Source of the DNA: Streptomyces sp. DHE7-1
GTDB lineage: Bacteria > Actinomycetota > Actinomycetes > Streptomycetales > Streptomycetaceae
Assembly: GCA_016432725.1 (NCBI GenBank)
Contig: JACJDG010000003.1
Span: forward strand, 868,001 to 932,000
DNA: 64,000 nucleotides
Direction of reading: 5' to 3'
In this document: positions 15,706 through 50,746 of the stretch, one piece after another
How the letters are laid out: each line of letters starts with the position of its first letter
Position numbering within the stretch: the first letter of the stretch is position 1
Position numbers and translations under genes: made by a program
Notes under the pieces: model-generated
The model's input: the letters and a program-made list of their open reading frames with translations, nothing else
What the model was told of the DNA's origin: nothing
Databases searched by the model: none

Positions 15706-15721
15706 AGGGCCGAACGGCCCT
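15706..15721. promoter_or_regulatory. Island palindrome (putative DevR/OsdR-type box), pncB promoter
   Basis: AGGGCCGAACGGCCCT: perfect 7-bp arms around AA. It is centred about 70 bp upstream of pncB. The same sequence recurs at 50731-50746. Confidence 0.6.
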
Positions 15722-23551: not shown

Positions 23552-24424
23552 TCAGTCCGCGCGGAGGAGGTTCTTCACCTCGACCACGTCGGCGATCCGC
23601 TCGACCTCGGCCAGCAGCCGCGCCCCGGTCGCCGGGGTCACCTGCCCAGCCAGCTCGACGATGCCGTCGTGGACGGTCACATCCACCGTCCCGCGGTCGT
23701 GCGGGGAGCAGACGGCCCGGATCCTTGTCTCCACCTCCGCCCGGATCACGGCGTCGTCCCTGATCAGGGTCTGCAGCAGGGCGTCCCGGCCCACGACGCC
23801 GACCAGCCTGCCTTCGTGGTCGGCGACCGGCAGCCGCTTCAGCCGGGACAGCGCCGCGAGCCAGGCGGCCTCGGCGACGGTGGTGCCCGGCAGCACGGTG
23901 ATCGCGGGGCTGGTCATCAGGTCGGCCGCCGTCTCGCCCCGGGCCTTTTCGTGCAGACGCCGCTCGCGGAGCCTGCCGATGGGTCCGGGCCGGTGGCCCG
24001 AGGCCTCGAACGCGACCTTGGCCAGCAGATCCGACTCCGAGACGATGCCGAGCACGCGGTCCTCGCCGTCCACGACGGGGAGGGCACCGACCTGTTCGCG
24101 CGCGAGCAGCCGGGCGATGTCCCGGTAGGGCAGGTCGTCCCGCAGGGACGCGGCGGGCACGTCCATCACGTCCCGAACCAGCACCGGGCCGGCGCCGTGC
24201 CCCGGCGTCGTGGGCCGTGTGGGCGGTGCGGCCCGGGGGGCCGGCTGGGAGGTCTCGCCCGGCGGGGACTCGCCGGGGCCCGCGTGCCAGGCCGCGGCGG
24301 CGGCCACGGCGCCCAGGTACCGGACGAGCATGTCCTGCCGGGCGCTCTCACCGGGGCTCCAGGAACGGCCGGGCTGGGTCCGCCGGGCCTCCGCCCCCGT
24401 GGAGAAGTTCTCGTGCCTGTTCAC
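23552..24424 (-). CDS. CBS-pair plus BON domain protein
   Basis: A 290-residue protein with a ~75-residue disordered N-terminus, a CBS pair (first: VRDVMDVPAASLRDDLPYRD and VGALPVVDGEDRVLGIVSE; second: TSPAITVLPGTTVAEAAWL and LPVADHEGRLVGVVGRDALL) and a C-terminal BON domain (TVDVTVHDGIVELAGQV). CBS pairs usually sense adenine nucleotides and BON domains often bind membranes. It is divergent from the V-ATPase operon across a shared palindrome, so the two may be co-regulated. Confidence 0.92.
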   Translation of the reverse strand: MNRHENFSTGAEARRTQPGRSWSPGESARQDMLVRYLGAVAAAAAWHAGPGESPPGETSQPAPRAAPPTRPTTPGHGAGPVLVRDVMDVPAASLRDDLPYRDIARLLAREQVGALPVVDGEDRVLGIVSESDLLAKVAFEASGHRPGPIGRLRERRLHEKARGETAADLMTSPAITVLPGTTVAEAAWLAALSRLKRLPVADHEGRLVGVVGRDALLQTLIRDDAVIRAEVETRIRAVCSPHDRGTVDVTVHDGIVELAGQVTPATGARLLAEVERIADVVEVKNLLRAD

Positions 24425-24483: not shown

Positions 24484-24521
24484 AGAGCCGAACGGCCCTG
24501 GTGGAGCGGCGTGACGGCCCT
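24484..24521. promoter_or_regulatory. Island palindrome plus half-site between CBS-BON gene and V-ATPase operon
   Basis: AGAGCCGAACGGCCCT at 24484-24499 differs by one base from the perfect box and is centred 67 bp from the CBS-BON start and 96 bp from the first V-ATPase gene. A half-site ACGGCCCT follows at 24514-24521. This 163-bp gap is the only sizeable non-coding DNA before the operon, so it probably holds the operon promoter. Confidence 0.55.
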
Positions 24522-24587: not shown

Positions 24588-25025
24588 ATGAGCCTGCGGG
24601 ATTTCCTGGAGCGGTTCCGTCCCACCGGTACGCCCGGAGCGGCCGCCGTCGGCGTGCCCGCCGACCGGGCGGCGGAGCGGGCCGCGGAGCTGGAGCCCGC
24701 GCTGGCGCGGCTGACGGACGTGCAGCGGGAGGCGGCCCGGATCCGCGCGGCGGCGGACGAGGCGGCCGAGGTCCTGCGACGGGACGCCGCGCTGCGGGCG
24801 GAGCGGGTCGTGGCGGACGCGCGGGAGCGGGCCCCGGAGGTACGGCGGCTTGCCGCGGCGCCCGTCCTCGAGGACGCCCGGCGCGGGGCCGACGCCGTGC
24901 GCGCGGCCGGTGCCCGGACCGCCGAGGCGGTCCGCGCGCGGGCCCGCGAACGCATGCCCGCACTGGTGGACCGAACAGTGGCCGACGCCCTGCGCCGGGC
25001 CACCGGGACCGGTGGAACACCATGA
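24588..25025 (+). CDS. V/A-type ATPase peripheral-stalk subunit G/H-like
   Basis: A 145-residue Ala/Arg/Glu-rich, strongly helical protein with heptad-like spacing through residues 40-120 (RIRAAADEAAEVLRRDAALR, ERVVADARERAPEVRRLA). This fits the stalk subunit that pairs with subunit E. Family identity comes mainly from composition and position at the head of a V-ATPase operon. GGAGAT lies just upstream of ATG 24588. Its TGA overlaps the ATG of the next mini-ORF (ATGA at 25022). Confidence 0.7.
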   Translation: MSLRDFLERFRPTGTPGAAAVGVPADRAAERAAELEPALARLTDVQREAARIRAAADEAAEVLRRDAALRAERVVADARERAPEVRRLAAAPVLEDARRGADAVRAAGARTAEAVRARARERMPALVDRTVADALRRATGTGGTP

Positions 25026-25117
25026 GCACCGCATGGCCGGCCGCAACGGCCCGGACGGTGAACCCCACGGTGACCGACACCCCACGCCGGGCCACCGAGG
25101 CGGACGGAACACCATGA
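25022..25117 (+). CDS. Mini-ORF 1 in the V-ATPase operon (31 residues)
   Basis: ATG 25022 overlaps the stop of subunit G/H (ATGA). It encodes MSTAWPAATARTVNPTVTDT and eleven more residues (PRRATEADGTP), and its own TGA overlaps the ATG of mini-ORF 2. It may be a by-product of the tandem duplication that keeps translational coupling intact rather than a functional peptide. No family is recognised. Confidence 0.45.
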   Translation: MSTAWPAATARTVNPTVTDTPRRATEADGTP

Positions 25118-25205
25118 GCACCGCATGGCCGGCCGCAACGGCCCGGACGGTGAACCCCACGGTGACCGACACCCCACGCCGGGCCACCGGGGCGGGCCGA
25201 GCGCC
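25022..25205 (+). repeat. 92-bp direct tandem repeat (two copies) made from a gene junction
   Basis: Copy 1 is 25022-25113 and copy 2 is 25114-25205; they differ at only a few bases near the end of the unit. The 5' part resembles the start of subunit C (ATGAGCACCGCATGG recurs at 25206). The 3' part resembles the end of subunit G/H (protein level VDRTVADALRRATG versus VNPTVTDTPRRATE). The unit is therefore a diverged duplicate of the G/H-C junction. As 92 is not a multiple of three, each copy resets the frame and ends in ATGA. Confidence 0.9.
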
Positions 25206-25209
25206 ATGA
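25114..25209 (+). CDS. Mini-ORF 2 in the V-ATPase operon (31 residues)
   Basis: Second copy of the repeat unit: ATG 25114, 31 codons, same first 25 residues as mini-ORF 1 and ending GAGRAP. Its TGA overlaps the start of subunit C (ATGA at 25206). Together the two mini-ORFs relay ribosomes from subunit G/H to subunit C. Confidence 0.45.
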   Translation: MSTAWPAATARTVNPTVTDTPRRATGAGRAP

Positions 25210-26118
25210 GCACCGCATGGGTGGCCGGGACGGTCCGGGCCCGGGAGCTCGCCCTGCGCCGCGTCGGCGACGCCGGGGCCCGGGAGCTCGCGGTCCGCGC
25301 GGATCTCGACGAGGCCCTGCGGGAGCTGGTCGTGACGCCGTACGGGAAGTACGCGCCGCCGGTGGCCGGGCTGTCCGAGGCCCAGCGGGCGGTGTCCGCC
25401 ACGCTGCTGTGGCACCTGCGGGTGCTGGCGGGCTGGCTGCCGCGCGGCGGAGCACGCCTGCTCGTGCCGCTGGCCTGCGGTTTCGAGGTGGCCAACGTGG
25501 CCGCCCTGCTCGCCGGAGACGGTCACGGCCCGGCCTCCGTGGAGCCGTACCGGCTCGGCGCCCTGGAGACCGCCTGGCGGCGGCTTGAGGGCGCGGGTTC
25601 CGGGCCCGGGATGCGCGCCGTGCTGACCGCGTCCGCCTGGGGCGATCCGGGCGGTGACTCCGCCGGTGCCGTGCTCACCGGCATGCGGATGGCCGCCGCG
25701 CGGCGGACCGCCCTCGCGGTGCCGCAGGCGCGGGACTGGGCGGTGGGGCGCGCGGCGCTGCTGACGGCGCGTGAACTGTTCGTGCACGGGCGGCCGCTGA
25801 CGGAGCCGGTACGGCGCGACGCCGCCCGGCTGCTGGGGGCGCGGGCGACGGGCGCGGCCTCCTATCCGCGGTTCCGCGAACTGCTGCCGGCCCCGGCCCG
25901 CCGGCTCCTGGCCGAGGCCGGGGAGCCGGGCGCGTTGTGGCGGGCGGAGGTGGGCTGGTGGCGCACGCTGCGGGACGACGGTGCCGCCATGCTGCGCGAC
26001 AACCGGTTCGGTCCCCGCACGGTCGTCGGCGCGGTCGCGGTACTGTCCGTGGACGCCTGGCGGGTGCGCGCCGCGCTGGAGTCGGCGGCGCGGGGAGGCC
26101 GGGTCGGGGAGGCTTTCG

Positions 26119-26132
<14 letters not shown>
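25206..26132 (+). CDS. ntpC: V/A-type ATPase subunit C (d-like, central-stalk cap)
   Basis: A 308-residue helical protein placed where the subunit C/d gene lies in such operons. It would couple the central shaft to the membrane ring. Helical segments such as LRELVVTPYGKYAPPV, ARLLVPLACGFEVANVAALL (about 85-105) and FRELLPAPARRLLAEA are consistent with the family, in which a residue row resembling L-x-x-x-x-E-x-x-N is conserved. Sequence divergence is high, so the call rests partly on context. Translation appears coupled to mini-ORF 2. Confidence 0.72.
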
Positions 26133-27961
<1,829 letters not shown>

Positions 27962-27963
27962 CG

Positions 27964-28188
27964 ATGGGCACCGTGGCCGCCATCGGCGCGCGCCCGGACG
28001 TGAGCGGGCTGGCCCTCGCCGGGGTGGAGGTGCTGGTCGCGGAGAGCCCGGACGCCGTCCGCCGGGCCTGGGGCCGGCTCCCGCGCGGCGTCGCCCTGGT
28101 GATCCTCACGGCGCCGGCCGCCGAGGCGCTCGGGGCCGGGGTGACGGTGCCGGATCCGTCCCGGCCGCTGACCGTGGTGATGCCCTGA
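27964..28188 (+). CDS. ntpF: V/A-type ATPase subunit F
   Basis: A 74-residue central-shaft subunit with the family's Rossmann-like start (VAAIGARPDVSGLALAGVEV), ALVILTAPAAEAL in the middle and a PLTVVMP ending. It is shorter than the usual ~100 residues, lacking the C-terminal helix region. It starts 2 bp after subunit K stops, and its TGA overlaps the ATG of subunit E (TGATG). Confidence 0.85.
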   Translation: MGTVAAIGARPDVSGLALAGVEVLVAESPDAVRRAWGRLPRGVALVILTAPAAEALGAGVTVPDPSRPLTVVMP

Positions 28189-28697
28189 TGGCCGCGCCCG
28201 TGGACGCGCTGGAACCGGTGCGTGCCGAACTGCTGCGGGCGGCCTGGGCCGAGGCGGCGGCGGTGCTCGACCGGGCGCGGGCCGACGCGGAGGAGGCGCT
28301 GCGCGTCGCGCGGGACACGGCCGACCGGGTGCTCGCGGCGGCCCGCGAGGCCGGCGCCGCGGACGGGGCCGCGGCGGCCGCGGGTGAGCGGATGCGAGCG
28401 GCCGAGGACGCGTGGACCGCCGAACTCGCCGCCCGCGCCGAGGTCTACGCGGACCTGCGGGCCGAGGTCCGCGCGGGTGTGCGGCGGGCACTGGCCGGGG
28501 ACCCTCGCGCACGGGACCGGCTGGTGGCGGCGGCGCGGGACCTGCTGGGGGCACGGGCGCGCGTCACGGACGCGCCGGGCGGCGGGGTGAGCGCCGAGGT
28601 GCCCGGGCGCCGCGTCGACCTGTCGGCGGACACCCTCGCCGACCGGGCCCTGGACCGGGCCGGGGTACGGGCCGAGCACCTGTGGGAACGGCCGTGA
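28188..28697 (+). CDS. ntpE: V/A-type ATPase peripheral-stalk subunit E
   Basis: A 169-residue protein with a long Ala/Arg/Glu-rich helix (residues ~5-95; AAWAEAAAVLDRARADAEEA) and a compact C-terminal domain (VSAEVPGRRVDLSADTLADR). This is the E-subunit layout: a coiled stalk plus a globular head that binds the catalytic hexamer. Slightly shorter than the typical ~190. It ends in GTGA shared with subunit A. Confidence 0.85.
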   Translation: MAAPVDALEPVRAELLRAAWAEAAAVLDRARADAEEALRVARDTADRVLAAAREAGAADGAAAAAGERMRAAEDAWTAELAARAEVYADLRAEVRAGVRRALAGDPRARDRLVAAARDLLGARARVTDAPGGGVSAEVPGRRVDLSADTLADRALDRAGVRAEHLWERP

Positions 28698-30577
28698 CCG
28701 GCCCGGGCGGCGGACGTGTGGCGGACGGCGACGGCGCCCCGCACGGACGGTCCGGCACGCACGCACGGTCCGGCACGCACGCACGGTCCGGCCCCGCGCC
28801 GGAGACCCCGGACCCGAGCCCGGACCGGCTTCCCGCCCCGGATCCGGACCCGGCTCGTCGCGACGCCGTACCCCGCGTCCTCCGGGTCGCCGGGCCGCTG
28901 GTCGAGATGGAGTGCCCCGCCTCGGTCGCCATGCACGATCTCGCCTCGCTGGGCACCGCCGGGCTGCCGGGTGAGGTGGTCGCCGTGCACGGCGGCTCGG
29001 CCACCGTCCAGGCGTACGAGTACACGGGTGGCATGGCGCCCGGGCAGCCCGCCGAACCGCTCGGCCGGCCGCTGTCGGTGGTGCTCGGACCCGGCCTGCT
29101 CGGCGGGGTGTTCGACGGTCTGCTGCGGCCGCTGTCCGGCGTCGGCGACCTGCTGCTGCCCGGTGCCGGGGACGGCGCGCCGGACCGGCGCACCTGGCCC
29201 TTCGTGCCCCGGGTGGGCGAGGGTGCCCGGGTGGAGGAGGGGGACGTCCTCGGGGAGATCGGGGCGCGGGTGCGCCTGAGCCTGCTCGTGCCGCCCGGCC
29301 GGGCCGGGACGGTGACCGGCGTCGCGGCGGCGGGCGAGTACCGCGCGGAGGCCGTGCTCGCCGAGGTGGCGGGGCACGAGGTGCGCATGGCACAGGGCTG
29401 GCCGGTCCGCAGGCCCCGGCCGGCCGCCGGGCGGCTGCCCGCCGACGAGCCGCTGCACACCGGGCAGCGGGCGGTCGACCTGCTGTTCCCGGTGGCCCGG
29501 GGCAGCACGGTCGCCGTGCCGGGCGGCTTCGGCACCGGCAAGACCATGCTGCTGCAGCAGATCGCCAAGTGGTGCGACGCCGACGTGATCGTGTACGTCG
29601 GCTGCGGCGAGCGCGGCAACGAGATGGCGGACGTCATCGAGGAGCTGTCCGAGCTCGCCGATCCGCGCACCGGAGGACGGCTGTCGGAGCGCACCGTGAC
29701 CATCGCGAACACCTCCAACATGCCGATGATGGCGCGCGAGGCGAGCGTGCACACGGGCGCCACGGTCGCCGAGTACTTCCGCGACATGGGCCTGGACGTC
29801 GTCGTCATCGCCGACTCCACCTCCCGCTGGGCGGAGGCGCTGCGCGAGTTCGCCTCCCGGATGGGCGAACTCCCGGCCGAGGAGGGCTACCCGGCGGGAC
29901 TCGCCTCCCGGCTGGCGGCGTTCTACGAGCGGGCGGGCCCGGTGCGCACCCTCGGCGGCGCCCGCGGTTCCGTCACGGTGATCGGTGCCGTGTCCCCGCC
30001 CGGCGGCGACCGCACCGAGCCGGTCACCGCGCACACCGAGCGGTTCGTACGGTGCCTGTGGAGCCTGGACCGGGACCTCGCCTACGCCCGCCACTACCCG
30101 GCCGTCTCCTGGACGGACTCCTTCTCCCGGGACGCGGCCGCGCTCGCCGCCGCCTACGCGCGGGCCGGTGATCCCGGGTGGGCGGCCCGGCGGGCCCGGG
30201 TGGCCGTTCTGCTCGCCGAGGCCGACCGGCTGGCCGACCTCGTGGAGCTGGTCGGCGTCACGGCCCTGCCGCCCCGTGAGCGGATCAGCGTGCTCGCCGG
30301 GCGGCTGCTGCGCGAGGCGGTGGTCCAGCAGAGCGCGCTGTCCCCGGCGGACGCCTACAGCGCGCCGGGGAAGACGGCGGCGCTCGTGGAGGCCGCGCTG
30401 TCGGTGATCGACCGCTGCGTCGAGCTGGTGGAGGGCGGTACGGGGGCGGACGCGGTCGAGGCGGTCGACTTCACCCCGCTGCTGCGGGCCCGGGAGACCG
30501 CCGGGCCCGCCGAGACCGCTCCGGTGGGCCGTGCCCGCGACACCGTGCTGGACCGGCTCGGGCGGTCGGCGGCATGA
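28694..30577 (+). CDS. ntpA: V/A-type ATPase catalytic subunit A
   Basis: Hydrolyses or makes ATP in the rotary complex. It has 627 residues from GTG 28694, which overlaps the stop of subunit E. Residues ~60-230 are the beta-barrel and the A-specific bulge domain (VEMECPASVAMHDLASLG, RRTWPFVPRVGEG). The Walker A is GGFGTGKT at 277-284 followed by MLLQQIAKWCDAD, then VGCGERGNEMADVIEE, the arginine/serine region ANTSNMPMMAREAS and DSTSRWAEALREF. The N-terminal ~55 residues are a disordered Pro/Asp-rich extension with an RSGTHA repeat. Confidence 0.96.
   Translation: MTGPGGGRVADGDGAPHGRSGTHARSGTHARSGPAPETPDPSPDRLPAPDPDPARRDAVPRVLRVAGPLVEMECPASVAMHDLASLGTAGLPGEVVAVHGGSATVQAYEYTGGMAPGQPAEPLGRPLSVVLGPGLLGGVFDGLLRPLSGVGDLLLPGAGDGAPDRRTWPFVPRVGEGARVEEGDVLGEIGARVRLSLLVPPGRAGTVTGVAAAGEYRAEAVLAEVAGHEVRMAQGWPVRRPRPAAGRLPADEPLHTGQRAVDLLFPVARGSTVAVPGGFGTGKTMLLQQIAKWCDADVIVYVGCGERGNEMADVIEELSELADPRTGGRLSERTVTIANTSNMPMMAREASVHTGATVAEYFRDMGLDVVVIADSTSRWAEALREFASRMGELPAEEGYPAGLASRLAAFYERAGPVRTLGGARGSVTVIGAVSPPGGDRTEPVTAHTERFVRCLWSLDRDLAYARHYPAVSWTDSFSRDAAALAAAYARAGDPGWAARRARVAVLLAEADRLADLVELVGVTALPPRERISVLAGRLLREAVVQQSALSPADAYSAPGKTAALVEAALSVIDRCVELVEGGTGADAVEAVDFTPLLRARETAGPAETAPVGRARDTVLDRLGRSAA
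28748..28792 (+). repeat. 18-bp in-frame repeat in the subunit A N-terminus
   Basis: CGGTCCGGCACGCACGCA repeats at 28748, 28766 and partly at 28784, encoding RSGTHARSGTHARSG. It lies in the disordered N-terminal extension and does not disturb the enzyme fold. Confidence 0.85.
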
Positions 30578-31983
30578 AGGGGCCCGCCGACGTCGAGTAC
30601 ACGGGGGTGCGGGAGCTGCGCGGCCCGCTGGTGGTCGTCGAGGGCGTGAGCGGGGTGGGCTGGGACGAGTTCGCCACGATCGCGGTCGGCTCGGGCGGGC
30701 GACGGCACGGGCTGGTCCTGGAGGTGGACCGGGACCTCGCCGTGGTGCAGGTGCTGGAGGACACGGCCGGGATGGACCGGACCCGCACCCGGGTGGCCTT
30801 CTCGGGCGCGCCGCTGCGGGTCCCGGTCGGCACCGGCTGGCTGGGCCGGGTCTGCGACGGGCGGGGCGAGCCCGCCGACGGCGGCCCGCCGGTGCTGGGC
30901 GCCGCCGACGCGGCGGTGGGCGGCGCCCCGATCAACCCGGTGCACCGGCAGCCGCCGAACGAGCCGGTGCTCACCGGTGTGACCGCCGTGGACGTGCTCA
31001 CCACCCTGGTGCGGGGCCAGAAGCTGCCGGTGTTCTCCGCGGCCGGGCTGCCGCACCTGGAGCTGGCCGTGCAGATCGCGGCGCAGGCCGCCTGCGGGGG
31101 CGAGCCGTTCGCCGTCGTCTTCGCCGGGATGGGGCTCACCCACGCCGACGCGGCGTTCGTCCGGGCGGGGCTGGCGGAGCGCTCGGCGGCGCGGGACCTG
31201 GTGCTGCTGCTCAACACCGCCGACGATCCGGTGATCGAGCGGCTGCTGACCCCGCGCATCGCCCTGACGGTGGCCGAGCACCTGGCGTTCGCGGAGGGCC
31301 GCCACGTGCTGGTGGTGATGACCGACATGACGGCCTACGCGGAGGCGCTGCGCGAGGTGTCCGCCGCGCGCGGCGAGATACCCGCCCGCCGGGCCTATCC
31401 GGGGTACCTGTACAGCGACCTGGCCTCCCTGTACGAGCGGTGCGGCCGGATCCGGGGCCGCCCGGGCTCGGTGACGATTTTGCCGGTGCTGACGATGCCG
31501 GCCGGGGACATCACCCATCCGGTGCCGGACCTCACCGGTTACATCACGGAGGGCCAGATCGTGCTGTCCGCCGAGGCGCACACGGCCGGCACCTATCCCC
31601 CGGTCGACCCGCTGGCCTCCCTGTCGCGGCTGATGCGCAAGGGCGCCGGCGCGGGCCGTACCCGCGCCGACCATCCGGACGTCGCGGCGCAGCTCATCGC
31701 CGCGCTCGCCCGGTCACGGCAGGTGCGGGAGCTGGCCGACCTCATCGGGCGGCCGGCGCTCTCCCCGGCCGATCTGCGCCACCTGGACCTCGAGGACGCC
31801 TTCCGGGAGCGTTTCCTCGCCCAGGGCACGGCCGAGAACCGCTCGCTGGACGAGTCCCTGGACCGGGCTTGGGAGGTACTGCTGACGTTGCCGCGCGGCC
31901 AGCTCGGCATGCTCCCGGCCGAGCTGCTCGACGCCCGGCGGCCGTCGTCCGCCGACGGCGCGGACGGGGCGGGGACGCCGTGA
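30574..31983 (+). CDS. ntpB: V/A-type ATPase regulatory subunit B
   Basis: Non-catalytic nucleotide-site partner of subunit A. The 469 residues include PINPVHRQPPNEPVLTGVTA near 125, VLTTLVRGQKLPVFSAAGLP near 147 (where the degenerate P-loop of B subunits lies), VVMTDMTAYAEALREVSAAR near 248 and YPGYLYSDLASLYERCGRI near 275, all typical. ATG 30574 overlaps the stop of subunit A (ATGA). Confidence 0.96.
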   Translation: MKGPADVEYTGVRELRGPLVVVEGVSGVGWDEFATIAVGSGGRRHGLVLEVDRDLAVVQVLEDTAGMDRTRTRVAFSGAPLRVPVGTGWLGRVCDGRGEPADGGPPVLGAADAAVGGAPINPVHRQPPNEPVLTGVTAVDVLTTLVRGQKLPVFSAAGLPHLELAVQIAAQAACGGEPFAVVFAGMGLTHADAAFVRAGLAERSAARDLVLLLNTADDPVIERLLTPRIALTVAEHLAFAEGRHVLVVMTDMTAYAEALREVSAARGEIPARRAYPGYLYSDLASLYERCGRIRGRPGSVTILPVLTMPAGDITHPVPDLTGYITEGQIVLSAEAHTAGTYPPVDPLASLSRLMRKGAGAGRTRADHPDVAAQLIAALARSRQVRELADLIGRPALSPADLRHLDLEDAFRERFLAQGTAENRSLDESLDRAWEVLLTLPRGQLGMLPAELLDARRPSSADGADGAGTP

Positions 31984-32600
31984 GCGGGCGCGGGGGCCGG
32001 GGGCCGGTGGGGCGGGCCGGCCGGCTGCGGCTGCGGCGCGGCCTGGCGACCGCCGAGCGCGGGGCCGAACTGCTGGAACGCAAGCTCCGGCTGCTCCTGG
32101 ACCGGGAGGGCGCGGAGCGCGAGGCGGCCGGGGAGGCGGGCCGCGTCTGGCGCGAGCGGCTGGCGGAGGCGGACAGCTGGCTGGTGCGCGGGCTGCTGCT
32201 CGGCGGTGAACGGGCGTGGGCCGAGGCGACGCCCGCCGACCGGGCGCGGGTCGGTGTCGAGTGGGACGCGGTGATGGGCGTCCGGCATCCGGCGGCCCTG
32301 TCCTGGACGGCCCCGGTGCGCGCCCCTCAGGAGCCGGCGCCGCCCAACACGGCACTCGCGCACGCGGAGACGGCCTACCGCGCCGCGGTGCGGGCCGCCG
32401 CCGAACACGCCGTCCACCGGGCGGCCGCCGAGCTGCTCGCCGCGGAGGCCGCCCGGACCCGGCAGCGGGTCCGGGCCCTGCGCCGGCACTGGATCCCCCG
32501 GCTGCGGCGGGAGCTGGCGGCCGTCGAGCTCGCGCTGGAGGAGGCGGAGCACGAGGACGCGGTACGGCGGCGCTGGGCCGCGACGCGCGCCGTCCGGTGA
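31980..32600 (+). CDS. ntpD: V/A-type ATPase subunit D (central shaft)
   Basis: A 206-residue antiparallel coiled coil that rotates inside the A/B hexamer. The N-terminal helix (RLRLRRGLATAERGAELLER, about 16-35) and C-terminal helix (RTRQRVRALRRHWIPRLRRE, about 162-181) are the usual paired helices. A linker in the middle (GVRHPAALSWTAPVRAP) is typical. GTG 31980 overlaps subunit B (GTGA). It is the last gene of the operon; hsp20 follows on the other strand. Confidence 0.9.
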   Translation: MSGRGGRGPVGRAGRLRLRRGLATAERGAELLERKLRLLLDREGAEREAAGEAGRVWRERLAEADSWLVRGLLLGGERAWAEATPADRARVGVEWDAVMGVRHPAALSWTAPVRAPQEPAPPNTALAHAETAYRAAVRAAAEHAVHRAAAELLAAEAARTRQRVRALRRHWIPRLRRELAAVELALEEAEHEDAVRRRWAATRAVR

Positions 32601-32666: not shown

Positions 32667-33071
32667 TCAGTGCTTGTGCTTGATCTCGACGTGCCTCGCC
32701 TCCGTCCGCTCGGCGCCCAGGCCGACGCTGACGGTGAGCACGCCGTCGGTGTAGTCGGCCGTGACGTCGTCCTCGTCGGCGCCGCGCGGCAGCGTCACGC
32801 TGCGGCTCATGGCGCCGTACCGGAACTCGCTGTGGTTCTTGTCCACGTCCCGTTCGGTGCGCTCGGCCTGGACCGTCAGGACGCCTTCGCCGACGACGAC
32901 GTCGATGTCCTCGGGGACCATGCCCGGCAGTTCGGCGCGCATGACGTAGCGGCCGCTCTCCGTGTAGTCCTCGATCCGTACGGCGGGCATCGAGAACTTG
33001 CTGGGAATGGTCTCGAACCAGTCGGGCATGTCCGGGAACGGGAATTTCTGCCTGCGTGTCAGTGTGGCCAT
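32667..33071 (-). CDS. Small heat-shock protein (Hsp20/alpha-crystallin)
   Basis: ATP-independent chaperone. The 134 residues carry an alpha-crystallin domain (about 38-128): YVMRAELPGMVPEDIDVVVG, RSVTLPRGADEDDVTADYTD and a DGVLTVSVGL-type strand. The I-x-I tail motif is not clear; the end is EARHVEIKHKH. DosR regulons in mycobacteria include HspX of this family. The start is ATG 33071. It is divergent from the USP at 33298 with two palindromes between. Confidence 0.95.
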   Translation of the reverse strand: MATLTRRQKFPFPDMPDWFETIPSKFSMPAVRIEDYTESGRYVMRAELPGMVPEDIDVVVGEGVLTVQAERTERDVDKNHSEFRYGAMSRSVTLPRGADEDDVTADYTDGVLTVSVGLGAERTEARHVEIKHKH

Positions 33072-33143
33072 CACCGTGACCTCCTCGGCGGTCGTCGGGT
33101 CTGCCGGCACCTCCAGTGCAGCGCGCGCGGGCCCCTCGCGCGT

Positions 33144-33297: not shown

Positions 33298-34227
33298 ATG
33301 AACGTGCTGCCCCGGCCCCGGTCCCGGCGAACGAGGGAGGCCGCCATGGCGGGCGCCGCTGACCGCAGGCCGGTCGTGGTGGGTGTCGATCCGGACCCGG
33401 GCCGGCGGATGGCGCTGGCCTGGGCTGCCGACGAGGCGGTCCGGCGGCGGGTCCCGCTGCGCCCGGTGCACGTGGAGGGCGTACCGACCAGAGGCACCCG
33501 GGCGCCGGACGTCCCGTCGTCCTGGGAGCAGTGGAACGACACGCTGCACCGGGCCGGCAAGCGGGTGCTCGACGACGCCGTCGACTTCGTCACCGCGCGC
33601 TGCCCGGACGCCGTCGTCGATCCGCTGCTCGCCGAGGGCGACCCGGTGTGGGTGCTGCGCGAACAGAGCCGCGACGCCACGTCGGTGGTGCTGGGCTCGC
33701 GGCATCTGAACCGGACGCAGGAGGTGTTCGGCTCGGCGGCCGTCGCGCTGCCGGTGGCGGCCCACGCGCACTGCCCGGTGGTCGTCGTGCCCGAGCCGGA
33801 GCACGTCACGCAGGAGCCCGCGTACTTCGTCGTGGGCGTCGACGGCAGCGAGCGTTCCGCCGTCGCCGTCGACCTGGCGTTCGAGGAGGCCGCGCTGCGC
33901 GGAGCCCAGTTGCGGGCGCTGTACGTGTGGCAGCCGGGGCCGCTGCGGATCTTCGACGAGTACGCGGCGCAGCAGGAGTGCCGGCGGCTGCTGTCCGAGA
34001 CGGTGGCCGGCCGCCGGGACCGCTATCCGGAGGTGGACCTGCGCCACGAGCTGCTGACCGGGCATCCCGTGCGGGCGCTCGCGGACGCCTCGGCGCACGC
34101 GCTGGGCCTGGTGGTGGGTACCCGGGGGCACGGCGGCTTCACGGGCATGATGCTGGGCTCGGTCAGTCAGGGCCTGCTGCGCCACGCCCGCTGCCCTGTC
34201 CTGGTGGTCCCGTCGCCGCCGGCGTGA
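33298..34227 (+). CDS. Universal stress protein, tandem domains
   Basis: A 309-residue tandem UspA protein with a ~22-residue N-terminal extension, VVVGVDPDPGRRMALAWAAD opening domain 1 and VVGVDGSERSAVAVDLAFEE opening domain 2. Domain 1's nucleotide loop (LGSRHLNRTQEVFGSAAV) lacks the Gly pattern, so only domain 2 (GTRGHGGFTGMMLGSVSQG) looks able to bind ATP. GAGGAGG precedes ATG 33298; ATG 33346 is an alternative. Confidence 0.92.
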   Translation: MNVLPRPRSRRTREAAMAGAADRRPVVVGVDPDPGRRMALAWAADEAVRRRVPLRPVHVEGVPTRGTRAPDVPSSWEQWNDTLHRAGKRVLDDAVDFVTARCPDAVVDPLLAEGDPVWVLREQSRDATSVVLGSRHLNRTQEVFGSAAVALPVAAHAHCPVVVVPEPEHVTQEPAYFVVGVDGSERSAVAVDLAFEEAALRGAQLRALYVWQPGPLRIFDEYAAQQECRRLLSETVAGRRDRYPEVDLRHELLTGHPVRALADASAHALGLVVGTRGHGGFTGMMLGSVSQGLLRHARCPVLVVPSPPA

Positions 34228-34679: not shown

Positions 34680-36416
34680 GTGGTGGACGAGCGCGCGCAG
34701 TACGGGCGCGAGGCGGAGGCGTCAGGGATGTCCCCGCAGCTGCGCCTGGACGCGCTGCTGGACGACCTCCAGACCCAGGTGGCGCAGGTCCGGGCGGCAC
34801 GGGACCGGGTGCACACGCTGCTCCGGGCCGTCCTCGCCGTCGGTTCGGACCTGGACCTGGAAGTGGTGCTGCACCGCATCGTCGAGTCGGCCGTCGCCCT
34901 GGTGGACGCCCAGTACGGCGCGCTCGGCGTGCTCGGCGACGAGGGCACGATCAAGCAGTTCGTCACGGTCGGCATGGACGAGGAGACCATCGAACGGATC
35001 GGGCACTATCCGCGCGGCGAGGGCATCCTGGGCCTGCTCATCCGTCATCCGGAGCCGTTGCGGCTCGCGGACCTGCACCGGCACGCGGCGTCCGTGGGCT
35101 TCCCCGCCGGGCACCCGCCGATGAGCAGCTTCCTCGGCGCCCCCGTCCGGGTCCGCGAGCAGATCTTCGGCAACCTGTACCTGACCAACAAGCGCAGCGG
35201 GGCGGAGTTCGACACCGACGACGAGGCGGTGCTGCGGACCCTGGCGGCGGCGGCCGGTGTGGCGATCGACAACGCCCGGCTGTACGAGGACGCGCAGCGC
35301 CGGCAGCGGTGGCTGGCGGCCAGCAACGACCTGACCCGCAGCCTGCTGTCGGGCGCCGAGCCGAGCGCGGTGCTGGAGTCCTTCACCGCGAAGGTGCGGG
35401 AGGTCGCGGGCGCGGCCCTGGTCACCCTCGCGGTCCCGGTCGGCGATCGCGGTGAGCTGGTGATCGAGGCGGCCTCGGGAGCGGGGGCCGAGAAGGTCCG
35501 GGGTCTGGTGCTGCCCCCCTCGGCGCTGGCCGCCAAGGTCTTCACCTCCGGTGAGACGATCACCAGCGACGCCCTGAGCGCCGACCCTCGCGCGGAGGGC
35601 GGCAGCGCCTCGGTGGTGGAGCTGGGGCCGGCCTTCTTCGTGCCGCTCGGCACCCCGGAGCACGTCCGCGGGGTGCTGCAGGTGGCCAACCTGCCCGGCG
35701 GGGCCCTGTTCGCCGACGCCGTGAGCGACATGGTCACCGGGTTCGGCAACCAGGCGGCGCTGGCCCTGGACGTCGCCGAGCACCGGCGGGACGCCGAGCG
35801 GATGGTGGTGCTGGACGACCGCGACCGGATCGCCCGGGACCTGCACGACCTGGTCATCCAGCGGCTGTTCGCGGGGGCGCTGTCGCTGCAGTCGACCCTG
35901 GGCCGGGTCTCCGACCGGCCGCAGGCGAGCGAGCGGATCCAGCGGGTGGTGGACGACCTGGACGACACCATCAAGATCATCCGTTCCACCATCTACGCCC
36001 TGCGCGAGCGCGACCAGGCGCGGCGCGGCAGCGGGCTGCGCGCCCAGCTCGTCGCGGCCACCGAACGGGCCACCGAATCGCTCGGCTTCGCCCCGGCGCT
36101 GCGCATGACCGGGCTGCTGGACACCGTCGTCTCCGCCGAGCAGGGCGAGCAGCTGCTCGCCGTGCTCGGCGAGGCGCTGTCCAACGCGGCCCGGCACGCG
36201 CACGCCACGTCGGTCGACGTCGGGGTCGAGGTCACGGACGCCGCCCTGCGGCTGCGGGTGGCCGACGACGGCCGCGGCATCGATCCGGCGGTCACCCGGC
36301 GCAGCGGGCTGGCCAATCTGCGCCGGCGCGCGGAGGAGATGGCGGGCTCGTTCGCCGTGTCCGCGAACGAGCCGAGCGGCACGGTCGTCGAGTGGACCGT
36401 GCCGCTGGCTCCCTGA
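34680..36416 (+). CDS. GAF-domain sensor histidine kinase (DevS/OsdK-like)
   Basis: A 578-residue soluble sensor kinase. Two GAF domains (about 50-190 with VALVDAQYGALGVLGDEGTI and FLGAPVRVREQIFGNLYLT; about 215-370 with LVTLAVPVGDRGELVIEAAS) precede a HisKA_3 box DRDRIARDLHDLVIQRLFAG with phospho-acceptor His389, then an HATPase (GEALSNAARHAHA, VADDGRGIDP). This is the layout of mycobacterial DosS/DosT and Streptomyces OsdK, which sense oxygen or redox. Start GTG 34680 or 34683 after GAGGGGAG. Its likely partner regulator is at 49958. Confidence 0.93.
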   Translation: MVDERAQYGREAEASGMSPQLRLDALLDDLQTQVAQVRAARDRVHTLLRAVLAVGSDLDLEVVLHRIVESAVALVDAQYGALGVLGDEGTIKQFVTVGMDEETIERIGHYPRGEGILGLLIRHPEPLRLADLHRHAASVGFPAGHPPMSSFLGAPVRVREQIFGNLYLTNKRSGAEFDTDDEAVLRTLAAAAGVAIDNARLYEDAQRRQRWLAASNDLTRSLLSGAEPSAVLESFTAKVREVAGAALVTLAVPVGDRGELVIEAASGAGAEKVRGLVLPPSALAAKVFTSGETITSDALSADPRAEGGSASVVELGPAFFVPLGTPEHVRGVLQVANLPGGALFADAVSDMVTGFGNQAALALDVAEHRRDAERMVVLDDRDRIARDLHDLVIQRLFAGALSLQSTLGRVSDRPQASERIQRVVDDLDDTIKIIRSTIYALRERDQARRGSGLRAQLVAATERATESLGFAPALRMTGLLDTVVSAEQGEQLLAVLGEALSNAARHAHATSVDVGVEVTDAALRLRVADDGRGIDPAVTRRSGLANLRRRAEEMAGSFAVSANEPSGTVVEWTVPLAP

Positions 36417-49957: not shown

Positions 49958-50641
49958 TCAGCGCCCCTCCCGTTCCCGTCTGTCCTGGACCTGGGTGGCG
50001 ATGACGGCCGCCTGGATGCGGCGCTCCACGCCGAGTTTGGCGAGCAGCCGGGAGATGTGGTTCTTCACCGTCTTCTCGGCGAGGTAGAGCCGCTGCCCGA
50101 TCTGACGGTTCGTCAGCCCTTCGCCGATGAGGGTCAGGATCTCCCGTTCGCGGTCGGTCAGCCCGGGCAGCTCGTCGGGTTCCTCCTGCTGCCGCGGGCC
50201 TCCGCGCAGCCGTGCCATCAGCTTGGTGGTGGCGCTCGGGTCGAGCAGGGACTGGCCGCGGGCCACGGTGCGTACGGCGGACACCAGGTCCGAGCCGCGG
50301 ATCTGCTTGAGGACGTAGCCGGAGGCGCCCGCCATGATCGAGTCGAGCAGCGCCTCCTCGTCGTCGAACGAGGTCAGCATGAGGCAGGCCAGCTCGGGCA
50401 TGCGCGAGCGCAGTTCCCGGCACACGCTCACGCCGTCGCCGTCGGGCAGCCGGACGTCCAGCACCGCCACCTGCGGGCGCAGGGCGGGGACCCGTACCAG
50501 GGCCTGGTCCACGGTGCCCGCCTCACCGACGACCTCGATGTCCGGCTCGTCGTTCAACAGGTCGCGCACACCGCGCCGGACCACCTCGTGGTCGTCCAGC
50601 AGGAAGACCCGGATCGGGCTGCCCTGCTCGCCGTCCGCCAT
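49958..50641 (-). CDS. NarL/FixJ response regulator (DevR/OsdR-like)
   Basis: A 227-residue response regulator. The receiver has [20 protein letters not shown] (acidic pair) and phospho-acceptor Asp62 in [13 protein letters not shown]. The C-terminal LuxR-type HTH (about 155-215) has [20 protein letters not shown] and [20 protein letters not shown]. The layout and neighbours match DosR/DevR and OsdR. Start ATG 50641. A perfect palindrome lies about 97 bp upstream, suggesting autoregulation. Confidence 0.93.
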
Positions 50642-50730: not shown

Positions 50731-50746
50731 AGGGCCGAACGGCCCT
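50731..50746. promoter_or_regulatory. Island palindrome upstream of the DevR-like gene
   Basis: AGGGCCGAACGGCCCT, identical to 15706-15721, centred 97 bp upstream of the response-regulator start. Confidence 0.6.

Follow-up and report, generated by a model that had tools for sequence, protein, structure and literature searches.

A complete, compact V/A-type ATPase operon beside a predicted OsdR box in a dormancy-type island of Streptomyces sp. DHE7-1

Why should a Streptomyces that possesses an F-type atp operon carry a second rotary ATPase among low-oxygen and dormancy genes? The question is raised by the window, the 64,000-nucleotide stretch of Streptomyces sp. DHE7-1 analysed here, where nine open genes (positions 24588 to 32600, order G-C-I-K-F-E-A-B-D) encode a complete V/A-type rotary ATPase. 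From sequence comparisons, and with a probability of roughly 0.55, we propose that a failure of oxygen supply or respiration turns on this complete, compact and presumably proton-coupled enzyme together with the OsdR (DosR/DevR-type) dormancy regulon. The operon and its surroundings comprise the following features (positions in the window; aa, amino acids):

23552-24424, minus strand: divergent CBS-BON protein, which recurs beside the operon in relatives
24484-24499, no strand assigned: predicted OsdR box AGAGCCGAACGGCCCT, 15.7 bits, between the CBS-BON gene and the ATPase operon
24588-25025, plus strand: G/H-like subunit, peripheral stalk, 145 aa; weak family matches, orthologue at the same place in 67 of the 80 related loci
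24956-25238, plus strand: 92-bp tandem repeat, 3.1 copies, at the G/C junction
25206-26132, plus strand: subunit C, 308 aa; PF01992 E-value 0.014, below cut-off; orthologue in 69 loci
26137-27543, plus strand: subunit I, short, 468 aa from the ATG at 26137; PF01496 E-value 9e-22, with model and fold match
27548-27961, plus strand: subunit K, 137 aa, N-terminal hydrophobic extension plus one hairpin, Glu120; PF00137 E-value 6e-15
27964-28188, plus strand: subunit F, short, 74 aa; PF01990 E-value 6e-4, below cut-off; fold match to Enterococcus hirae F
28188-28697, plus strand: E-like subunit, peripheral stalk, 169 aa; no Pfam match, NCBIfam E-value 0.04; orthologue in 80 of 80 loci
28694-30577, plus strand: catalytic subunit A, 627 aa; NF003220 634.8 bits, over cut-off
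30574-31983, plus strand: subunit B, 469 aa; NF003235 595 bits, over cut-off
31980-32600, plus strand: rotor subunit D, 206 aa; PF01813 E-value 2e-27
32667-33074, minus strand: Hsp20
33298-34227, plus strand: universal stress protein
34680-36416, plus strand: GAF-GAF histidine kinase; its domain composition and the likeness of the island, not a comparison to the S. coelicolor protein, make it a candidate OsdK
49958-50641, minus strand: LuxR-type response regulator, candidate OsdR by island resemblance; perfect box upstream at 50731

All nine frames are open, without frame errors and in the order given by the original prediction. The overlapping stops and starts that it described occur at F/E (1 nt) and at E/A, A/B and B/D (4 nt each), whereas gaps separate C from I (7 nt, with the I start at 26137), I from K (4 nt) and K from F (2 nt), and the G/C junction is no plain overlap. 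Because this junction holds the 92-bp repeat, subunit C most likely starts at 25206. Subunits A, B, D, I and K exceed their Pfam family cut-offs, while F and C stay below theirs. G and E, which have weak family matches, were assigned from their position and from orthologues at the same place in relatives, as found at the 80 loci by a profile search limited by position and strand; for C too, position and conservation complement a weak profile match.

Three lines of evidence assign the enzyme to the V/A type. First, the catalytic subunit A, with its Walker A motif and GER glutamate, and subunit B exceed their NCBIfam cut-offs, their scores with V/A families are far above those with atpA/atpD, and the operon does not hold the F-type alpha/beta/gamma set. 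Second, the membrane motor is formed by an I subunit with the essential arginine and a K subunit with its carboxylate. Third, the rotor subunit D is over its cut-off, and F, which is below its Pfam cut-off, yet has F subunits as its top fold matches.

The residues singled out by the original prediction were found, namely GGFGTGKT at residues 277-284 of A and Glu120 in K; the arginine of I that it called Arg439 bears this number if I starts at 26119 and becomes Arg433 with the ATG at 26137 (Arg432 counted from 26140), an ATG that is nearer the conserved start of the family than 26119. The alignments, the model and the residue numbers of I are based on the stretch from 26140, one codon past this ATG, and in this numbering a second conserved arginine stands at 374. 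The catalytic glutamate of A occurs in all 81 aligned rows, and the A residues are kept in 81/81 rows, a single row having the T of the Walker A motif replaced by N. Similarly, Glu120 of K is present in 77/77 rows and both arginines of I in 74/74. Homology to solved A subunits begins near residue 60 of A, the first approximately 60 residues being non-homologous.

The operon family is a distinct clade, common to Streptomyces, Nocardia, Mycobacterium, Amycolatopsis and others. The full gene order is found at 65 of the 80 related loci; twelve of the other 15 end at or near a contig end, while L026 is without F, L060 has only E-A-B-D and L080 is without G and C. The Pfam model of subunit D, which may overlook divergent D subunits, matched 13 of 150 Streptomyces genomes, the present one included (12 over the cut-off, and G037 below it). 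The rarity proposed for actinomycetes thus holds, as a patchy distribution, in Streptomyces, but not in other lineages of the phylum, which often carry a V/A-ATPase (D-subunit match in 73 of 296 genomes). The enzymes sampled from these lineages have the same core subunits, but they are of a different, standard-sized type with the order I-K-E-F-A-B-D in eight of nine readable operons, an open reading frame for I of 650-729 aa in eight of nine (one is cut) and a separate branch in the A tree. As to the literature, a passage of PMC12451618 describes the gain of an A/V-type synthase in Melissospora, and a table line of PMC5336288 gives a prokaryotic V-type ATPase module for Nocardia seriolae; parts of further papers are cited beside these passages (PMC4154653, PMC6302529, PMC5910484).

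The island around the operon, with its low-oxygen and dormancy genes, resembles the OsdR (DosR/DevR-like) island of S. coelicolor, and it also encodes phosphoketolase, pyruvate phosphate dikinase and polyphosphate kinase 2. The OsdR/DevR dormancy regulon of PMC5069765 has similar island genes and predicted boxes, and the main text of that paper holds no occurrence of ATPase, ATP synthase or V-type. The titles and abstract openings listed by searches of open-licence papers gave no description of such an operon in a dormancy regulon, and no open-licence paper joining "DosR regulon" and "V-type ATPase" was found. The stress or dormancy-type setting proposed at the outset recurs at nearly all loci examined: stress-gene neighbours, some of whose families were picked for their recurrence at ATPase loci, are present at 59 of the 62 loci with usable flanks (absent at three) versus none of 20 control stretches. 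Eighteen of the 80 loci had been left out as being without G, D or 3 kb on both sides, and the controls, scored with the same profile set and threshold, lay at round positions that we chose in seven genomes. A genus draw gave stress neighbours at 11 of 11 loci, five of which are also among the 80 (L092 is L049, L094 is L005, L095 is L009, L099 is L020 and L101 is L029). Less favourably for the proposed reading, OsdK-like kinases occur in 106 of 121 Streptomyces genomes; as their surroundings are not conserved as a block, no empty site was readable in 12 stretches beside the closest of them.

The predicted OsdR box, scored with a matrix of the sites that PMC5069765 gives for S. coelicolor, has its centre some 97 bp before the first ATPase gene and is kept in the close relatives of the window. 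Boxes of at least 12 bits precede the operon in 13 of 35 family representatives (40 clusters, minus five without a usable upstream region) versus 3 of 203 control upstream regions, and a looser box core in 17 of 35 versus 7 of 203; six of the 13 belong to the window's own close clade. The island as a whole contains 27 predicted boxes of at least 10 bits, as compared with 5 to 14 in ten resampled sequences.

Together, the dormancy-island setting and the box beside the operon suggest that this second ATPase keeps resting cells energised. The regulation, ion and direction that we infer are as follows. The candidate OsdR would activate the divergent CBS-BON and ATPase transcripts, and the ATPase would spend ATP from fermentation or stored phosphate to pump protons out, which would hold a modest membrane potential and the internal pH in non-growing cells. 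Reverse running, with ATP made at low proton-motive force, would also be possible: the carboxylate retained in every K hairpin leads us to expect a high H+/ATP ratio.

Such synthesis, for example in microaerobic or nitrate respiration, might even be the main work of the same enzyme in the same regulon, a possibility that we regard as doubtful. It would fit the one carboxylate per single-hairpin K, a feature of the Thermus synthase as well, and the nearest solved A subunits by score, which are archaeal A-type ones followed by Thermus. Against it, pumping is the role usually inferred for a second V-type enzyme, and the F-type atp operon that the original prediction had proposed to look for is indeed in the genome. 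The atpA and atpD genes are each split between frames in the present assembly; because rpoB is likewise broken, this points to sequencing error, not to a V-type enzyme replacing the F-type one.

It is unlikely that the operon encodes an enzyme of general stress, be it acid, osmotic or cation stress, independent of OsdR and hypoxia, with a box that, lying between two divergent genes, may serve CBS-BON alone. P-type cation ATPase and TrkA neighbours, at 23 and 20 of the 42 Streptomyces loci with usable flanks, would agree with such a role, as would the 22 of 35 representatives, mycobacterial ones among them, that have no 12-bit box upstream. A known parallel, described in part of PMC6863869, is the patchy thaumarchaeal V-ATPase with a reported acid-tolerance role, pumping protons under stress; that enzyme is the only ATPase of its cell, whereas the present genome also has the F-type operon. 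OsdR-dependent expression is favoured by the boxes that Actinoplanes, Lentzea and a Nanopelagicales genome also have in front of the operon, and by the richness in predicted boxes of the island that holds the operon.

A sodium pump of the Enterococcus kind appears very improbable. The overall subunit set is shared, A, B, D, F and I being recognisable in the E. hirae structures and the E. gallinarum operon L180; however, K here has neither the Gln of TM1 nor the Thr beside the Glu, both of which act as sodium ligands and are present in a Rubrobacter K. Operon L180 differs further by its I of 664 aa, its F of 104 aa, its two-hairpin K and its order I-K-E-C-F-A-B-D; that the Enterococcus type has another gene order than the window had been stated in the original prediction. 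The gene order of Thermus also differs from that of the window.

The compactness of subunits I and F was overlooked in the first reading. The same core subunits form the Thermus thermophilus V/A-ATPase (6qum, 3a5c, 5gar), with which I, F and K align, but its I and F chains have 649 (6qum) and 104 residues versus 468 and 74 here. I is about 190 residues shorter than the Rubrobacter and Enterococcus I, and its model, computed for I alone and used for the overall fold match only (rmsd of 8 to 9 Å against whole chains), predicts a single cytosolic lobe without the long collar arm for two stalks. F, whose best fold match is E. hirae 3vr4_H, Thermus F (3a5c_H) ranking lower, reaches position 77 of the 102 residues of the E. 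hirae chain in the fold alignment and stops there; it has 70-90 aa in 77 rows, without the C-terminal helix of the studied enzymes. A degenerate or non-functional remnant, to which these short forms and the repeat at the G/C junction of this genome could point, is less credible still, as the short I and F are family-wide and the functional residues are kept across many genera. More tentatively, the compact V/A-ATPase might be a reduced dormancy motor of Actinobacteria, which would have lost the C-terminal helix of F and the I arm that anchors both peripheral stalks in A-ATPases, and which, with a reduced stator, possibly of one stalk, and under a DosR-type regulator, would maintain the proton-motive force of cells that do not respire.

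An old question at the centre of DosR biology is how aerobic actinobacteria, when dormant and deprived of oxygen, maintain a proton-motive force. The second rotary ATPase, with its predicted operator of the DosR/OsdR type, opens this question to direct tests in a soil genus that is harmless. Furthermore, the short I and F would be a natural experiment on the minimum stator and rotor for a V/A-ATPase.

The complete V/A-type ATPase operon announced by the original prediction was borne out as nine open frames on the + strand of the window (24588-32600), in the order G-C-I-K-F-E-A-B-D:

G/H-like subunit, + strand, 145 aa, assigned mainly by place and conservation
Subunit C, + strand, 308 aa, weak V/A-type family match
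Subunit I, + strand, 468 aa, strong V/A-type family match
Subunit K, + strand, 137 aa, strong V/A-type family match
Subunit F, + strand, 74 aa, weak V/A-type family match
Subunit E, + strand, 169 aa, assigned mainly by place and conservation
Subunit A, catalytic, + strand, 627 aa, strong V/A-type family match
Subunit B, + strand, 469 aa, strong V/A-type family match
Subunit D, + strand, 206 aa, strong V/A-type family match

Key residues are conserved in the operon and its relatives with short I and F subunits (hereafter the compact family). In subunit A, residues 277-284 read GGFGTGKT and residues 305-307 read GER; the Glu of GER is present in 81/81 family rows, and Glu120 of K is kept in 77/77. 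Subunit I possesses Arg374 and Arg432 (residue 1 being taken at 26140, the codon that follows the ATG at 26137), both kept in 74/74 rows and located in stretches aligning to the eukaryotic subunit a; we take them to be the counterparts of its essential arginines. The N-terminus of A (28694-28870) comprises about 60 low-complexity residues with a SGTHAR repeat and no match to solved A subunits, and the true start of A may lie downstream of 28694. The G/C junction (24956-25238) harbors 3.1 copies of a 92-bp unit holding two 31-codon mini reading frames, each with a terminal ATGA overlapping the next start, so that translational coupling across the repeat seems to be kept. No such insert occurs in the 67 relatives possessing both genes, since their G stops fall between -27 and +3 bp relative to the point where C homology begins.

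As anticipated, the same genome also encodes an F-type ATPase (at about C1:5285900-5293000, C1 being a contig of the DHE7-1 genome), whose subunits other than alpha and beta were named by reading the sequence. The alpha (atpA) and beta (atpD) frames are split in the assembly (C1:5288730-5292495), likely through indel sequencing errors, since rpoB (C1:4539862-4543167) is frame-split as well.

The compact family differs from other V/A-ATPases in several respects. First, subunit I has a median length of 468 aa (73 relatives), as compared to 664 aa in Enterococcus gallinarum and 656 aa in Rubrobacter. The AlphaFold model of I alone (mean pLDDT 79.1, pTM 0.60) shows the membrane helices preceded by a single compact lobe in the cytosol, and a long coiled-coil arm is absent; the model aligns with Thermus I (6qum_N, 649 residues) over 425 residues (Z 13.2, rmsd 8.3). 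Knowing that the A-ATPase collar touching both peripheral stalks is described in PMC6131620 as made of subunit a/I alone, the stator should be altered if I lacks the arm as modelled. Second, F spans 70-90 aa (77 rows), and its model (pLDDT 89.0) covers residues 2-77 of E. hirae F (3vr4_H, 102 residues; 74 aligned, Z 10.9, rmsd 2.0), the C-terminal part of which extends beyond the end of the compact-family model. Third, K consists of a single hairpin preceded by an N-terminal hydrophobic extension, and has neither the Gln in TM1 nor the Thr next to the Glu that are present in a Rubrobacter K, a pattern that favours protons as the coupling ion. Fourth, eight of the nine readable operons (from 14 fetched stretches) of the other V/A-ATPases of the phylum have the order I-K-E-F-A-B-D, with weak E and F matches, and I frames of 650-729 aa are found in eight of the nine, the ninth being cut.

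Scanning a single genome for each species returned 240 stretches encoding a relative of A, and the 80 best loci were retained. They come from Streptomyces, Kitasatospora, Nocardia, Mycobacterium, Amycolatopsis, Lentzea, Actinoplanes, Nocardioides and others; 65 of these 80 display the full G-C-I-K-F-E-A-B-D order and 12 of the remaining 15 end at or near a contig end. D-subunit matches occur in 73/296 genomes of the phylum and in 13/150 Streptomyces genomes, that of DHE7-1 included (12 above the cut-off). In an A-subunit tree of 70 sequences, for which the program warned of long branches, the 57 compact-family rows share one branch (support 100/100, length 1.07), where Streptomycetaceae form one group (100/99) and mycobacteria fall in three places; we read this as an ancient enzyme that was lost many times and transferred on some occasions. 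A close A subunit is encoded by four large plasmid records (three Streptomyces, one Embleya). At locus L134, in another genome of the phylum, B and D adjoin a divergent A subunit of V/A type, which sits on a long branch (1.27).

In the window, part of an 8.14-Mb genome, the operon is accompanied by genes for a CBS-BON protein (divergently transcribed), Hsp20, several universal stress proteins (Usp), a GAF-GAF histidine kinase, phosphoketolase, pyruvate phosphate dikinase (PPDK), nitroreductase, PNPOx-like proteins, polyphosphate kinase 2 and a LuxR-type response regulator. This content resembles that of the S. coelicolor island of the dormancy regulator OsdR (around SCO0198-SCO0219), as described in PMC5069765. 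With a matrix built from the S. coelicolor sites of PMC5069765, 27 OsdR boxes of at least 10 bits are predicted in the window versus 5-14 in ten resampled sequences. Perfect predicted AGGGCCGAACGGCCCT boxes lie at 50731, upstream of the response regulator, and at 15706, upstream of a nicotinate phosphoribosyltransferase gene; the stretch that separates CBS-BON from the ATPase has the predicted box AGAGCCGAACGGCCCT (24484), with its centre about 97 bp ahead of the first gene of the operon.

Similar boxes were searched for across the family, with A clustered at 80% identity and a single representative taken from each cluster; upstream regions were usable for 35 of the 40 clusters. In 13/35 representatives, the 250 bp upstream contain a predicted box scoring 12 bits or more, versus 3/203 control upstream regions. 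Six of the 13 belong to the close clade of the window, and Actinoplanes, Lentzea and a Nanopelagicales genome are among the remaining seven. No 12-bit box was found upstream in the other 22, mycobacterial ones included. A looser DosR-type core occurs in 17/35 representatives (6/19 outside Streptomyces) versus 7/203 controls.

Stress-type neighbours (Usp, CBS, Hsp20, P-type cation ATPase, TrkA or PPDK), some chosen because they recur at these loci, were found at 59 of the 62 loci that have both G and D and are flanked by 3 kb or more on either side (Streptomyces, 41/42; others, 18/20). In a draw of loci within the genus (5 of 11 also among the 80), CBS-BON occurs in 11/11, Usp in 10/11 and Hsp20 in 5/11; at the same threshold, none of these families was found in 20 control stretches (20 kb, from seven of these genomes), though genes for an acyl-CoA ligase, a kinase or a response regulator do occur in some of them. 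Several other genera have a single Usp gene after D. A second group of Streptomyces V-ATPase loci (L020, L028, L029, L033, L039, L041, L044, L046 and others) adjoins genes for an acyl-CoA ligase, an ACP-like protein and E1alpha, E1beta and E2-like 2-oxoacid dehydrogenase components (each gene cluster being present at 14 to 21 loci; names read from sequence). Plasmids of S. fungicidicus, Pseudonocardia and Rubrobacter (L179, L181, L182) also have genes for a P-type cation ATPase close to those for a V-ATPase, the V-ATPases at the latter two loci being of a different type from the compact family.

The enzyme class is already known, and public records carry annotations for single subunits (G, F and E being hypothetical in that of S. 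fungicidicus p1); no description of the compact family or its OsdR/DosR regulon link was found in searches of open-licence literature. The OsdR regulon has been linked to hypoxia (PMC6302529). Stress-linked pumping has a precedent in the V-ATPase of thaumarchaea, the operon of which improved E. coli growth at low pH (PMC6863869). We propose that OsdR-type control, acting through the operator, would induce a presumably proton-coupled V/A-ATPase, which would most likely work as an ATP-driven pump and may help cells that are not respiring to keep their membrane energised and to sustain their pH.
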